A stretch of DNA of 64,000 nucleotides. Origin: Ruegeria sp. Ofav3-42. Lineage in GTDB: Bacteria > Pseudomonadota > Alphaproteobacteria > Rhodobacterales > Rhodobacteraceae. A program made the position numbers and the translations under genes. The stretch spans positions 124,001-188,000 of the forward strand of contig NZ_JAKRGB010000008.1 in NCBI RefSeq assembly GCF_022347725.1. Direction: 5' to 3'. A model generated the notes under the pieces. The model saw only the letters and a program-made list of their open reading frames with translations, was not told where the DNA came from and did no database searches. Shown in pieces: positions 784-32,264 of this stretch; within the stretch, counting starts at the first letter, position 1; every line of letters begins with the position of its first letter.

Positions 784-825
784 AAAGGGCACCTCAGGGT
801 CCAGCCCTTTGCAGTAAATGATGCA
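784..825 (+). repeat. Left terminal inverted repeat of the IS-like element
   Basis: This arm matches the reverse complement of 3486-3526. Shared blocks are AAAGGGCACC at the outer end, then CCAGCCCTTTGC, GTAAATG and TGCA further in. Differences are a short scrambled stretch (TCAGGGT against CTGAGG, one base longer here) and two single-base changes. The outer end lies 13 bases past the lipoprotein stop codon. Confidence 0.85.
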
Positions 826-839
826 AAATAAAACTTCGG

Positions 840-858
840 TTGGCCAGTTTCTGGCCAA
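840..858. repeat. Left subterminal palindrome
   Basis: Perfect 8-bp inverted repeat, TTGGCCAG and CTGGCCAA, around a TTT loop. It lies 14 bases inside the left inverted repeat and about 50 bases upstream of the transposase-like gene. There is no T-tract, so it is less likely a terminator than a protein-binding or end-processing site. Function unknown. Confidence 0.5.
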
Positions 859-906
859 TCTACTCCCACAATAATAAGAAAAACCGGAACAACCGGGAGT
901 AAATAA

Positions 907-2637
907 GTGGGAACCCTCTCGAAAAATTCTTCGAGTGATCAGCGCAGAAGATTGCCTTTGCCGTCCTTTGGCATCGACATCAGTTTCTGCAGGAATCCTC
1001 AATGCAGCCTGTTCATGGAGCCACCTGACCCTTTTGATAACAGAGGGAAAAACGGCGCCAAAGTCAAATCAAACTTTCCACGCGGCACGGTCAGCGGCTC
1101 AGGAGACGAGAAGACTTTCATTTGCGGCGCTTGCGGAAAATCTTCGATCCTGAAGAATAACAAAGCGATCGTTGAGGAATACCGGCGCCTGAGGTCAAAA
1201 TTTCGCCCAGAGGCGCCACGCGATGCCTGCACAAATGTGGAATGCGCCAATCACGGCAAATCGGCCGCTGAACATCCGAAACTATATCGAAAATCTGGTT
1301 GGACCGCTAACGGGGTGCAGCGGCGGAAATGCAAAGCATGCCTGACCTCTTTCTCGGTTGGGTCGCGTATTCGGCGCCAAAAGCGAAGCAGCGCAAACAA
1401 CGCTGTCCTGTGGATGATTACCAACGGGACGCCAATCTCCAAGATCTGTGATTTCACTGGGCTGTCTGCGCGGGATGTCTATGCGAAGATCGACTTCATC
1501 CATGATCGGGTTATCGACATTACTACGCGCCGGGAGGGCCTGTTCGAAAAGGTCGATTGGATCGCGGTGGGTCGGAGGTTTGCCACGGATTCGCAAACGC
1601 TTCATCTCAACTGGCCGAACAAGAAGACCAGGGCGCAAATAGCAGTCCATCATCTCTGCACCGCCCATGCAAACACCGGCTACATCATGGCCGCTCATGT
1701 TGGGCTGGACCCGGAATTGGAGCTTCCTGACATCGAGGCCCAGATGGTGACCGCCGGTGATTTCGGCCTCCCTCGTGCCTATCGACAGCAGGCTCGGGTC
1801 TGGTCTGAGACTGAATTCAAGGCTTATCTGGACAAAATCACGCGGAAAGTGGCTATCCACCCGCAAGAGGCGCCCGAAGTGGATCTCGGTCTGCAGCTGC
1901 CGCACAGAGGCGCGATGCTGCGCCAGGACATCATGCAACTCGCCCATGCTTTCCTGTTAAGGAAATTCTTGGGCAAAGGAGATGAGCGATTTGTCTTTGT
2001 GCTCGATGCAGATTCTGGTCTGGCTCTTTCGTTCATTTCTGCCTTCGCATCCAGGATCGCCAAGGAACTCGCCGATGTCATCGTTGTGCGCTTCGACAAA
2101 AACAAGTCCAATGACCAGCGCAACAGCCTCGTTGCAGAAGGCAAGGCGGCGTTGGAAGCGGCCTCTGGCATCAGTTCCAGCACTTGGGCGGCTATGACAG
2201 CTACTGAGGCAGCAGAGCAAACAGATTTGGTGATAGAAGGGATGTTGGGGACTTATCCGGTAGGAATGCCTTTCGATTGGCCATTCCATACCAAATCCGA
2301 ACCAAGCAGGGAGATCCGGATCATTACTGATCGGCCAGGCATGTCAAATGATCGGCGCGCTCGCCTGATGCGTCTCGCCACACTCCGAAGCGTCGACTCC
2401 TATTTTCACAAGGTGAGGTCCAACCTTCGCTTCGCCGCGCGCCCGGGGCATACGCCAAGCGGCAACGGGCAGACCTGGGACCGCCATTACCTATATAACC
2501 CCGAGACGATGGCGAAGATCGTTGAGATCTACCGCTTCAGGCACAACTGGATGGGAAGCAGCTCAACAAAAATAACTCCAGCTATGAAACTGGGATTAGC
2601 GAAAGGTAAGATCTACCCAAAGGATCTGTTTGGGTAG
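907..2637 (+). CDS. Zinc-ribbon DDE-type transposase-like protein
   Basis: A 576-residue protein, probably the transposase of the flanking inverted repeats. The N-terminal third carries several cysteine pairs: CGAC near residue 77, a CTNVEC block near 107-112 and CKAC near 142-145. A helix-turn-helix-like segment follows (about 165-190). The C-terminal half has a possible catalytic acidic residue at FVFVLDADSG (about 360) and ends in TPAMKLGLA, which resembles the TPAM-x-x-GL ending of many DDE transposases. The start is GTG at 907, chosen for GGGAG seven bases upstream. I cannot place it in a named IS family; IS1- or IS1595-like zinc-ribbon groups are the nearest in architecture. It converges with the small GYQP gene. 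Confidence 0.65.
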   Translation: MGTLSKNSSSDQRRRLPLPSFGIDISFCRNPQCSLFMEPPDPFDNRGKNGAKVKSNFPRGTVSGSGDEKTFICGACGKSSILKNNKAIVEEYRRLRSKFRPEAPRDACTNVECANHGKSAAEHPKLYRKSGWTANGVQRRKCKACLTSFSVGSRIRRQKRSSANNAVLWMITNGTPISKICDFTGLSARDVYAKIDFIHDRVIDITTRREGLFEKVDWIAVGRRFATDSQTLHLNWPNKKTRAQIAVHHLCTAHANTGYIMAAHVGLDPELELPDIEAQMVTAGDFGLPRAYRQQARVWSETEFKAYLDKITRKVAIHPQEAPEVDLGLQLPHRGAMLRQDIMQLAHAFLLRKFLGKGDERFVFVLDADSGLALSFISAFASRIAKELADVIVVRFDKNKSNDQRNSLVAEGKAALEAASGISSSTWAAMTATEAAEQTDLVIEGMLGTYPVGMPFDWPFHTKSEPSREIRIITDRPGMSNDRRARLMRLATLRSVDSYFHKVRSNLRFAARPGHTPSGNGQTWDRHYLYNPETMAKIVEIYRFRHNWMGSSSTKITPAMKLGLAKGKIYPKDLFG

Positions 2638-2645
2638 ATCATTTC

Positions 2646-2798
2646 TTACTTCTTGCTCACAGAGCTTCCACCGGAAGGTGGCTGTGATGACTGGTTGTCG
2701 CCGCTGCTTGTTGTCGGCTGGTATCCGTTCTGCGGTGTTGAAAGGGGTTGATAGCCGCGCTGGTCGCTGGTCGGTTGATCTGGTTTTTGTTCACTCAT
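2646..2798 (-). CDS. Small GYQP-repeat protein partnered with DUF6338
   Basis: A 50-residue, highly polar, probably disordered protein made mostly of Ser, Gln, Pro, Thr and Gly. It has two near-repeats, RGYQPLS (residues 14-20) and NGYQPTT (24-30), and a basic SKK end. Its ATG shares an ATGA overlap with the TGA of the upstream membrane-protein gene, which indicates translational coupling and common regulation. It ends 8 bases from the convergent transposase-like gene. I recall similar short GYQP proteins next to DUF6338 genes, but I know of no assigned function. A plausible role, purely inferred, is a soluble partner or tail that binds the cytosolic domain of the membrane protein. Confidence 0.75.
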   Translation of the reverse strand: MSEQKPDQPTSDQRGYQPLSTPQNGYQPTTSSGDNQSSQPPSGGSSVSKK

Positions 2799-3418
2799 GT
2801 TTTTGAAACCTCGTTAGGGGGATTTGCGGGAAAAAACTCAATGTATCTAATCTCGCTTGGGCGAATGAGGATACCTTTATCTCCAACATCCTTCCAAGGG
2901 CCATGTTCTTGGATTTCAAGCACCTTTTCAATGTAAATGTCTCGTTCAGTCGGATCGCTTGAGGCAAACGAACTCTCATCATACCTGCCTGCTACACATT
3001 CACCATCTGTCATGGTTACAAGAACAAATTGAGGTTGTGTTCTTTGGAATTTCCAATCCCATGCCGTTGGAACTGGATGAACCGGATTCAGTTTAGCTTT
3101 TCGCAGTAGCCCTCTTACCAAATCAAGTCTGGCATTAAGCCCAAGTAGCGCACCCAGGATCGCCGGGCCAAGGAAAACGGTCAACAAAGCGACACGGGGA
3201 TCTTCGCTTATTTCTTTGACCGTTAGGCCGGCAATCATGACCATAGCCCAATAGATCAATGAGATTGGAAGGTATGTCAGAATTGCGTCTGTATGTTTCT
3301 GCATCCGACCTGTCAGAAACTGAGCACGAACAAAGACAGCGATAAGGCCAGGGACAACCAAGTATAAGACGATTTGAAAAGCCTCTGGGCTCTTGAGATC
3401 AACCAATTGTAACTCCAA
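2795..3418 (-). CDS. DUF6338-type three-helix membrane protein
   Basis: A 207-residue protein with three hydrophobic spans at about residues 14-32, 47-66 and 76-97. A soluble C-terminal domain (about 110-200) follows, with conserved-looking blocks PTAWDWKF, VLVTMTDG, an S-x-x-S-x-P-x-E-R-D-I-Y-I-E-K motif and a terminal IRPSEIRYIEF strand. This layout fits the uncharacterised DUF6338 family. The first gene of a two-gene unit, it runs by ATGA overlap into the GYQP protein. The DNA is more A/T-rich than the flanking genes and lies inside an inverted-repeat element, so transfer is likely. Function unknown; carriage as a passenger gene would fit a defence or fitness cassette, which is inference. 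Confidence 0.75.
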   Translation of the reverse strand: MELQLVDLKSPEAFQIVLYLVVPGLIAVFVRAQFLTGRMQKHTDAILTYLPISLIYWAMVMIAGLTVKEISEDPRVALLTVFLGPAILGALLGLNARLDLVRGLLRKAKLNPVHPVPTAWDWKFQRTQPQFVLVTMTDGECVAGRYDESSFASSDPTERDIYIEKVLEIQEHGPWKDVGDKGILIRPSEIRYIEFFPANPPNEVSKT

Positions 3419-3461
3419 GAAAAACTTATGAAGAATATGGCATCGTCCAGAAAAAAGAAAA

Positions 3462-3490
3462 GTGCAGATCTGGTCAAATCAGATCTGCAC
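3462..3490. repeat. Right subterminal palindrome
   Basis: Perfect 11-bp inverted repeat GTGCAGATCTG / CAGATCTGCAC around a 7-base loop, touching the inner edge of the right inverted repeat. It lies 44 bases upstream of the DUF6338-type gene, so it could be an operator for that gene or part of the transposition end. The left end has a palindrome at a comparable place but with different sequence. Confidence 0.5.
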
Positions 3491-3526
3491 CATTTACCGC
3501 AAAGGGCTGGCCTCAGGGTGCCCTTT
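3486..3526 (-). repeat. Right terminal inverted repeat of the IS-like element
   Basis: Reverse complement partner of 784-825. Read on the minus strand it gives AAAGGGCACC, then CCAGCCCTTTGC, GTAAATG and TGCA, with a one-base-shorter variable stretch. The outer end is followed by TTGCACATTAACC, which does not duplicate the left flank. Confidence 0.85.
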
Positions 3527-29649: not shown

Positions 29650-29749
29650 GCTGCGCCCTCCGCGCGATGGACAGGGGACGTGGAACAGGTGTCTCAGCGA
29701 ACTGAAGACCTGCCCGGACACCCCGCCCGAGTTTCGGTTTTTCTTTCGA

Positions 29750-29945
29750 TGGCAGGTCTCCTGACTTGCGGGTCGTTGCTTTGCCGACCTTCCCAGCCTT
29801 TCGGCCAGTGGTGTTTCGGCATTGCTCACCGCTTACAGTTGCGGGGGCAGTCGCGGCCTTGGTCCGTTCCGGCATTGCCGGGCTGGACCGCACCGTGTTC
29901 CCTTTTCATCCCGCCCCAATATGAGGACGAGAACCATCACGCCAT
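29750..29945 (-). ncRNA. Cobalamin (AdoCbl) riboswitch
   Basis: On the minus strand the order is AAAAGGGAAC-ACGGTG, a variable arm, CCCCGCAACTGTAAGCGG, CCACTGG...GGGAAGG and finally GTCAGGAGACCTGCC, all hallmark blocks of the cobalamin family including the B12 box. The 5' limit is approximate. The 3' strand AGACCTGCC can also pair with GGCAGGTCT about 37 bases further down (plus-strand 29706-29714), a candidate expression platform. It governs the cysteine-rich gene at 29242-29649. Confidence 0.92.
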
Positions 29946-30096
29946 CGCTAGCGGTTGTAGGTGGCTTGAGTCAAGCAGGCTCTTTTTGCCGCTCGAAACG
30001 GACGTGTGGTCACTTTGGAAATCTATTGACTTTGATCTGCGAAAAGCGCCGATTGCAACAGGTGAACCGAACAGTTCAGATGCTTGCGAGGGCGCT

Positions 30097-32006: not shown

Positions 32007-32166
32007 TGTTCTGCCTGTGTTCAGGTACAGCAAACCGTCAGGATGGCAGACGCGCATCCATTGGTGATGTGTTCAGGCAGGGGTAGGGGTAAGGCTTAGA
32101 ACCACTCTGCCCGAAGGGTTTTTGCTACAATCATAAAAGCCCTCCTGCGGCTGATGGCCTGAGTAA

Positions 32167-32264
32167 GTGAGAGGTTGGACATCGACCCAAGCGGGGCTCG
32201 TTGTGGCTGCTTCCTTCCGGACCTGACCAGGTTGGCGAGGCGCTCGCCCGCGCCAACCTCTCAA
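32167..32264 (-). ncRNA. ffs: Signal recognition particle RNA, small bacterial 4.5S type
   Basis: The minus strand carries the invariant GGTCAGGTCCGGAAGGAAGC apical core, closed by a long helix whose ends GAGAGGTTGG and CCAACCTCTC pair perfectly. The core is the Ffh-binding symmetric/asymmetric loop and tetraloop. Length is about 98 nt. Ends are set by the outer helix and could be off by a few bases. The remaining 160 bases towards rsgA show no further gene. Confidence 0.95.

Follow-up and report, generated by a model that had tools for sequence, protein, structure and literature searches.

The Pfam family DUF6338, whose function is unknown, almost certainly forms a recurring two-gene unit with a small proline-rich ORF. 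The family thus gains a partner, a predicted fold, and a candidate contact between the GYxP motif of the small proteins and an S-F-x-S loop of DUF6338. Here, we describe the pair as it occurs in the window (the whole 64,000-nucleotide stretch of Ruegeria sp. Ofav3-42 DNA that was analyzed) and then its relatives in several phyla, phages, and plasmids.

A DUF6338/GYQP gene pair in an IS-like transposon

The pair and the element that carries it comprise the following features of the window:

792-800, plus strand: target-site duplication, left copy, CCTCAGGGT (9 bp)
801-3510, no strand assigned: IS-like transposon with inverted repeats, target duplication, and empty site, enclosing the DUF6338/GYQP pair as passengers together with a transposase-like gene
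801-825, plus strand: left terminal inverted repeat, end of the IS-like transposon
907-2637, plus strand: transposase-like protein of 576 aa, with a zinc-binding stretch of the IS1/IS1595 type (weak NCBIfam matches)
2610-2640, both strands: terminator-like hairpin between the two convergent units (terminator scan; also an inverted repeat)
2646-2798, minus strand: GYQP small protein, 50 aa, its start overlapping the DUF6338 stop (ATGA, 2795-2798)
2795-3418, minus strand (start at 3418 or 3406): DUF6338 protein (PF19865) with three membrane helices and a C-terminal Sm/LSm-fold domain, both predicted
3461-3491, minus strand: terminator-like hairpin just 5' of DUF6338 (consensus scan only)
3486-3510, minus strand: right terminal inverted repeat, end of the IS-like transposon
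3511-3519, plus strand: target-site duplication, right copy, CCTCAGGGT (9 bp)

A sequence-only reading had described a 207-residue, three-helix DUF6338 protein running by an ATGA overlap into a 50-residue protein with two GYQP copies, and the coordinates, strand, overlap, lengths, and repeats can all be read in the sequence. The family identity agrees with Pfam (PF19865; 131.9 bits versus a gathering cutoff of 26.5, E 2.9e-38), and AlphaFold places long helices at residues 11-35, 42-66, and 74-95. The start of DUF6338 is uncertain: translation from 3418 gives 207 aa, and a TTG at 3406, with GGAG six bases 5' of it, gives 203 aa. The small protein ends in PPSGGSSVSKK. Neither gene matched a PADLOC model (E up to 1) or PHROGs, and the DUF6338 protein gave a weak NCBIfam match far under the cutoff.

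The transposon is 2,710 bp long, with 25-bp terminal inverted repeats identical at 23 of 25 positions. None of the 12 same-genus genomes searched has an insertion at this site; in them, the reductase gene and the upstream ompA-like gene are 111-151 bp apart versus 2,840 bp in the window, and the insertion point lies in a predicted hairpin 3' of the ompA-like gene. The element therefore has everything expected of an insertion sequence with passengers, namely inverted repeats, target duplication, a transposase-like gene, and an empty site in relatives. A longer, 42-nt inverted repeat (784-825/3486-3527) was rejected as the transposon ends by the empty-site comparison; its outer part consists of host hairpin and target duplication, and the true ends are 801-825 and 3486-3510.

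The 576-aa protein had no Pfam match, and its best NCBIfam match has an E of 1.1e-4. Relatives on other plasmids (L080, L082) lie in transposase-only elements whose outer inverted-repeat ends resemble those of the window. From the weak profile matches and these relatives with inverted-repeat ends, we make a weak assignment of the protein as a putative transposase. Because such transposase-only elements exist and the DUF6338/GYQP pair lies inside the transposon bounds, tail to tail with the transposase-like gene, the pair is a passenger of the IS-like transposon. The hairpin at 3461-3491 might serve as an insulator of the passenger unit; the region has five terminator-like sites versus 3.6 expected by shuffling, and as a set these are not significant.

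Elsewhere in the same genome, a single end-like sequence (C3:2585-2609, positions 1501-1525 of L170) has two mismatches to the transposon inverted repeat and lies about 65 bases 5' of two toxin-antitoxin genes of the Xre/RES type (Pfam E 1.2e-10 and 1.9e-31). No second transposon end was seen within 3 kb. L170 may be a further element of this transposon family with a conflict passenger.

Pairing of DUF6338 with small proline-rich ORFs

Our collection of DUF6338 loci, which spans several phyla as well as phages and plasmids, numbered 108, and dereplication by shared 4-mers left 81: 30 from whole-genome samples, seven from other GTDB-type genomes, 12 from plasmid/phage records (one phage record included; 14 of 18 plasmid and phage matches used), and 32 from viral contigs. 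The viral set was mostly gathered with a single gammaproteobacterial-type alignment, and 46 viral-contig loci came from one alignment; an actinobacterial DUF6338 alignment found no relative among the viral contigs, and A1, a mixed alignment, proved too heterogeneous for scanning a collection. Loci below the Pfam cutoff were dropped (L018-L021, L024, L045-L049, L051, L060-L065), with L017 retained as passing only with its neighbors in frame. Partial or broken genes were kept at L009, L011, L041, L128, and L142, the last of these being partial. Excluded from the 108 were L055 (poly-proline partner), L074 (DUF6338 apparently frame-broken), L040 and L050 (broken), and the duplicates L023, L027, L053, L054, L138-L140, and L143. 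DUF6338 is sparse: in two overlapping draws of 398 and 385 genomes, it exceeds the cutoff in 20 and 15, respectively. A profile match above the cutoff also occurs in the archaeon Haloferax volcanii, a control genome, and a single phage-borne copy used as DNA query, at less than survey scale, had no match in E. coli genomes.

For each locus, we considered ORFs of 30-130 aa on the same strand and at most 300 bases downstream of DUF6338. Such an ORF contains GYQP at 46 of 81 loci, versus 0 of 81 on the antisense strand, 0 of 1719 other stretches taken from the same loci, and 0 of 2430 shuffles. With a looser definition (G[YFWH]xP in an ORF with a proline content of 10% or more), the count is 54 of 81, compared to 4 of 81 antisense, 46 of 1719 other stretches, and 70 of 2430 shuffles. 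The association is also positional: a proline-rich small ORF starts between -45 and +60 of the DUF6338 stop at 58 of 81 loci versus 22 of 379 other ORFs, and a GYQP ORF does so at 43 of 81 versus 0 of 379. Within the whole-genome samples alone, the proline-rich ORF is in this interval at 20 of 30 loci, versus 1 of 55 other ORFs. The window pair conforms, with a short proline-rich G-aromatic-x-P ORF directly 3' of DUF6338 on the same strand. The earlier proposal of a two-gene unit carried on mobile DNA is thus borne out, for the recurrence by these counts and for mobility by the transposon in the window.

The literal motif is unevenly distributed, being present at 9/30 whole-genome, 2/7 GTDB-type, 6/12 plasmid/phage, and 29/32 viral loci; for G-aromatic-x-P or SYQP, in the widest script, the respective counts are 14/30, 4/7, 12/12, and 31/32 (61/81 in total). 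The sequence-only reading had tied the unit to GYQP itself, and would have been refuted if most DUF6338 genes lacked a GYQP neighbor. This is so for the whole-genome loci, 21 of 30 of which lack one, but not for the full set, where only 35 do. Of the 30 whole-genome loci, 26 carry a G-aromatic-x-P/SYQP ORF or else one that is rich in proline and has PP close to its end. DUF6338 is thus paired with a wider proline-rich family, within which GYQP represents one form. Other forms, recognized by eye, include GVQP, GSYQP, poly-proline with KKK, and EGYxxKGG, and the poly-proline and EGYxxKGG subtypes were scored as lacking GYxP. No convincing proline-rich downstream ORF was found at L017, L037, L057, L058, or L059, and only a doubtful one at L015; most of these six are weak or divergent DUF6338 matches.

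A profile of the small protein (A9; 28 sequences, including the window's own and none from the other three genomes matched) had matches in 4 of 398 genomes (E threshold 0.01), all of them directly 3' of DUF6338. It recovered the window gene, with whose sequence it was itself built, and its sensitivity is low (four genomes matched versus 20 with DUF6338 above the cutoff). BLAST of the window small protein against plasmids gave one match, with an E of about 3 and beneath a hydrolase gene; pairwise BLAST is uninformative here because the protein is too short and simple.

Selection and composition of the small proteins

The small ORFs are under purifying selection, judging from pairwise codon comparisons. 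For pairs with a defined dS, dN/dS ranges from 0.01 to 0.28 apart from a single value of 0.54 (L121/L129, possibly non-orthologous); dS is saturated in many pairs, and the pairs are non-independent. Between L084 and L092, for example, 21.5 changes fall on 29.5 synonymous sites versus 3.5 on 111.5 replacement sites. A small ORF without conservation at the amino acid level, which had been named in advance as evidence against the pair, is excluded by this selection on the small frame. The selection also bears on whether the small ORF is a gene at all, as opposed to a frame kept open incidentally by conservation of the DNA or a frameshifted continuation of DUF6338. The latter would fit the 12 of 58 viral and MAG loci at which the small ORF stays in the DUF6338 frame past one or two stop codons. 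However, frames and spacings relative to DUF6338 vary from locus to locus, the small genes occur in tandem, and mass spectrometry has detected proline-rich small proteins at one DUF6338 locus (PMC10433244, in its account of that locus), so that a non-gene is hardly credible.

That locus is in Pseudomonas stutzeri, where, in the passages of the report that treat it, the DUF6338 gene Pstu14405_RS12030 is in a predicted operon with three proline-rich proteins of fewer than 50 aa (PMC10433244). Digest-free proteomics yielded 44-114 spectra for the three small proteins, and the DUF6338 protein was undetected; the same passages judge the small proteins not to be conserved beyond the species (PMC10433244).

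The second gene of the pair had been thought too short for most gene callers. This is true of some records, in which the first small ORF is missing from the gene table, but others include the small gene among their hypothetical proteins; the tables compared were those of plasmid and phage records, and the plasmid tables are themselves incomplete. Among 61 representatives passing our small-ORF filter, 46 have one small ORF, nine have two, four have three, and two have four. The tandem genes, up to four copies, are divergent in sequence. After four filtered ORFs were judged spurious and dropped, the remaining 80 contain GYQP 101 times; 77 have PP within the last 20 residues and 62 have two or more K/R among the final five, features that the filter itself favored through the motif and proline-rich ends. 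The proteins have a median length of 53, a median GRAVY of -1.48 (maximum -0.45), and a median pI of 9.8. At L100 and L101, glutamine-rich or other filler separates the GYQP repeats, an indication that their spacing may be free.

Tandem short proline-rich peptides adjoining a small membrane protein could also be exported antimicrobials, with DUF6338 protecting the producer, and an antimicrobial role is one possibility named by the P. stutzeri authors in their discussion of the locus (PMC10433244). Yet the small proteins have no obvious signal sequence because they are very hydrophilic, even the GRAVY maximum being negative. Among the nearest neighbors of at least 90 aa at the 81 loci, there is no recurrent gene for secretion or processing. 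Killing peptides usually diversify, whereas GYQP recurs across phyla. We therefore regard a bacteriocin with its immunity protein as very improbable.

Predicted fold of DUF6338 and a candidate contact

AlphaFold models the window DUF6338 protein as three long helices followed by a C-terminal barrel (pLDDT 84.5, pTM 0.68). Against solved structures, the model aligns to Hfq (4jrk_C) over 60 of 62 residues at 1.5 A with Z 7.7, and all 50 structures among the matches listed are Sm, LSm, or Hfq proteins or complexes containing them. The relative L092, modeled as a fusion (pLDDT 73.3), matches SmAP (1jri_B) with Z 8.3 over 74 residues at 2.6 A. A Z near 8 is by the tool's own note middling, and Foldseek of the L092 model against the PDB gave nothing under E 0.001 (best E 3.3e-3). 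At the sequence level, one of 33 DUF6338 members has a weak match to the Ataxin-2 Sm profile (E 0.25). We accept the Sm fold because coverage is full, the rmsd is low, and the match list is almost wholly one fold; the C-terminal domain is thus predicted to be of Sm/LSm type, a helix and a small barrel. Among predicted viral structures, three match the window model with an E of 0.001 or lower, and an uncharacterized phage protein ranks first (2.2e-6). Helices 1 and 3 are each followed by positive residues, which can be read as placing the barrel in the cytosol.

In Sm proteins, an R-G in the second Sm motif contacts RNA. By eye, residues of this type are not kept in the DUF6338 alignment, so canonical RNA binding by the domain is doubtful. 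A different contact is suggested by a loop of S-F-x-S type between barrel strands. Among 77 aligned DUF6338 proteins, 54 of the 61 with the loop have a GYxP partner, compared to 1 of the 16 without it, and this single case (L079, SFLTS) was misassigned by the search pattern. The partners of the loop-negative proteins are poly-proline, EGYxxKGG, or none. The matching of loop and motif fits a possible docking of GYxP at the S-F-x-S loop, yet it is confounded by descent, and the loop-negative set comprises a few clades.

We also modeled docking with phage-derived loci in which DUF6338 and the small ORF are adjacent and in frame, reading the stop as glycine; nine of the 41 rows in the alignment were such fusions, and L092 was the protein predicted. 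In this read-through model, the small part is disordered (pLDDT <50) and undocked, which neither supports nor excludes binding. We think that the two products probably bind each other.

Genomic neighborhoods and a possible role in conflict

At several plasmid/phage-record loci, the pair is close to defense genes. In L067, a CBASS cyclase and 2TM effector pair is immediately followed by DUF6338. In L068 (6001-8221), within a Tn7-like element on a Proteus plasmid, genes for a ThsB-like TIR protein and a caspase come immediately after DUF6338 and its small gene, possibly a Thoeris-type cassette. MBL-like and E2-E1-JAB genes are near L073 and, by annotation, L069; a Hachiman HamA lies about 5 kb from the pair in L066, and a CHAT protein with no PADLOC match is near L078. 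In all, PADLOC-supported defense genes are present at 4 of 12 distinct plasmid/phage-record loci, a raw count, from scans of the proteins of six of these loci. Outside the plasmid set, ten neighbor proteins of eight loci included one clear defense-type gene (L005) and one weak match (L036); the former is a reverse transcriptase 29 bases upstream, which best matches a generic RT model, with UG17 as the best specific one. In APSE- and YeP4-related phage genomes, the pair occupies a slot beside a helicase gene on the opposite strand, and this phage helicase is the largest shared neighbor family of at least 90 aa (7 of 81 loci). A same-strand ORF of at least 90 aa lies within 80 bases of 25 of the 81 copies and is absent at 56. 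Altogether, the pair is mostly an autonomous accessory unit that is sometimes appended to other operons.

A role in conflict or defense, which the sequence-only reading had raised as a possibility, is plausible, and we give it a little less than an even chance. The contrary reading is that DUF6338 and its peptides organize or tune a membrane or translation-related process, and that their mobility is ordinary gene traffic. Many whole-genome copies do sit among genes that are not defense-like (by eye from first residues, few having been scanned), and the 56 copies with no close same-strand neighbor agree with this. However, the sparse distribution, phage slots, plasmids, Tn7-like element, and IS are the habits of accessory conflict genes, and we hold a non-conflict accessory to be a minority possibility.

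The same compact arrangement on plasmids, phage-type contigs, and an IS could indicate that DUF6338 is a membrane toxin and that the small proteins, very hydrophilic and mostly basic, are disordered antitoxins kept in excess. Abundant small proteins beside an undetected DUF6338 protein in P. stutzeri would fit, though membrane fractions were unanalyzed there, according to the passages on this locus (PMC10433244). Against this, DUF6338 precedes the small gene, and the latter is present in up to four divergent copies, an arrangement unexpected for an antitoxin, and neither window protein matched a toxin or antitoxin family in Pfam, PADLOC, NCBIfam, or PHROGs. A toxin-antitoxin pair is thus unlikely.

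The explanation that we prefer for the whole, with roughly even chances of being right, is a mobile two-component module in which a membrane-anchored receptor of Sm fold has disordered peptide ligands. DUF6338 would be an inner-membrane protein with a cytosolic C-terminal domain of Sm/LSm fold, and the one to four small proteins encoded directly 3' would be its dedicated disordered ligands. Their repeated G-Y-x-P motifs may bind the Sm-fold domain at its S-F-x-S-S-x-P loop or close by, and the proline/lysine tail may add affinity or touch the membrane. Peptide produced together with DUF6338 would hold the membrane protein in one state; upon loss or change of the ligand, for example during phage attack, DUF6338 would switch, most plausibly harming or sealing the membrane. 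Our computations support this explanation through gene pairing, protein-level conservation, tandem copies, mobility in the window, the predicted fold, and loop-motif matching. From these we infer physical binding of DUF6338 and peptide; that the protein switches, and that the pair serves in conflicts with phages and other mobile DNA, is a guess from circumstantial support. In a bolder form, DUF6338 would be a membrane pore with an Sm ring at its bottom, gated by tandem, interchangeable disordered GYxP peptides, and would act as a modular effector either alone (on phages, plasmids, and transposons) or appended to defense cores (CBASS, reverse-transcriptase, E1-E2-JAB, and TIR-caspase). We consider this form speculative and rather improbable.

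Comparison with known systems

The DUF6338/small-protein pair is new as a system within our limited searches (Pfam, PADLOC, NCBIfam, PHROGs, and the literature); we call it new because no known system in these libraries matches and only one strain-level report was found. In open PMC papers, preprints not included, DUF6338 is named in that one paper, and none of the further titles listed describes the pair. GYQP as a word turned up in one paper, on plant mitochondria. The pair seems to have been overlooked, one half being a DUF and the other a disordered protein of 40-60 residues that annotation often skips. The P. stutzeri operon, as presented in the passages on it, resembles the window in combining DUF6338 with small proline-rich proteins, which are candidate members of the family; it concerns one strain, whereas the pairing described here recurs across phyla with a common motif. 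If its small proteins are members, the published single-species statement needs correction.

With Sm/LSm/Hfq proteins, the C-terminal model shares a short helix and small barrel, with near-full coverage of Hfq at 1.5 A; DUF6338 differs from them in carrying the barrel behind three membrane helices and in not keeping the R-G. Eukaryotic LSm domains (EDC3, LSM14) bind short linear motifs of disordered proteins, but with other motifs, no membrane anchor, and a role in mRNA decapping. MscS-type channels resemble the predicted DUF6338 in having membrane helices followed by a beta domain, which in MscS is Sm-like. We know of no partner peptides for these channels. The MS_channel family was absent among the 25 families listed for 33 DUF6338 members at E up to 10, a search in which HMMER filters drop weak matches, and no MscS structure was among the best structure matches listed for the window and L092 models. 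In a miniature MscS, TcMscS, a minimal plan of helices and a beta domain forms a heptameric channel, as the passages on its architecture describe (PMC12334622). By analogy, the LSm domains that bind short motifs and minimal MscS channels are the closest precedents, and we claim no family membership for DUF6338 in either. SLATT-type 2TM CBASS effectors are likewise small membrane modules near nucleotide cyclases (compare L067), but no homology to them was seen, and DUF6338 usually occurs by itself and brings a peptide partner of its own. If the defense reading is true, DUF6338 would be a new membrane module of bacterial immunity with regulation at the level of peptides.

Elsewhere in the window, there are a cobalamin riboswitch (29734-29953, minus strand, 124.9 bits) and a bacterial small SRP RNA (32165-32263, minus strand, 57.3 bits).
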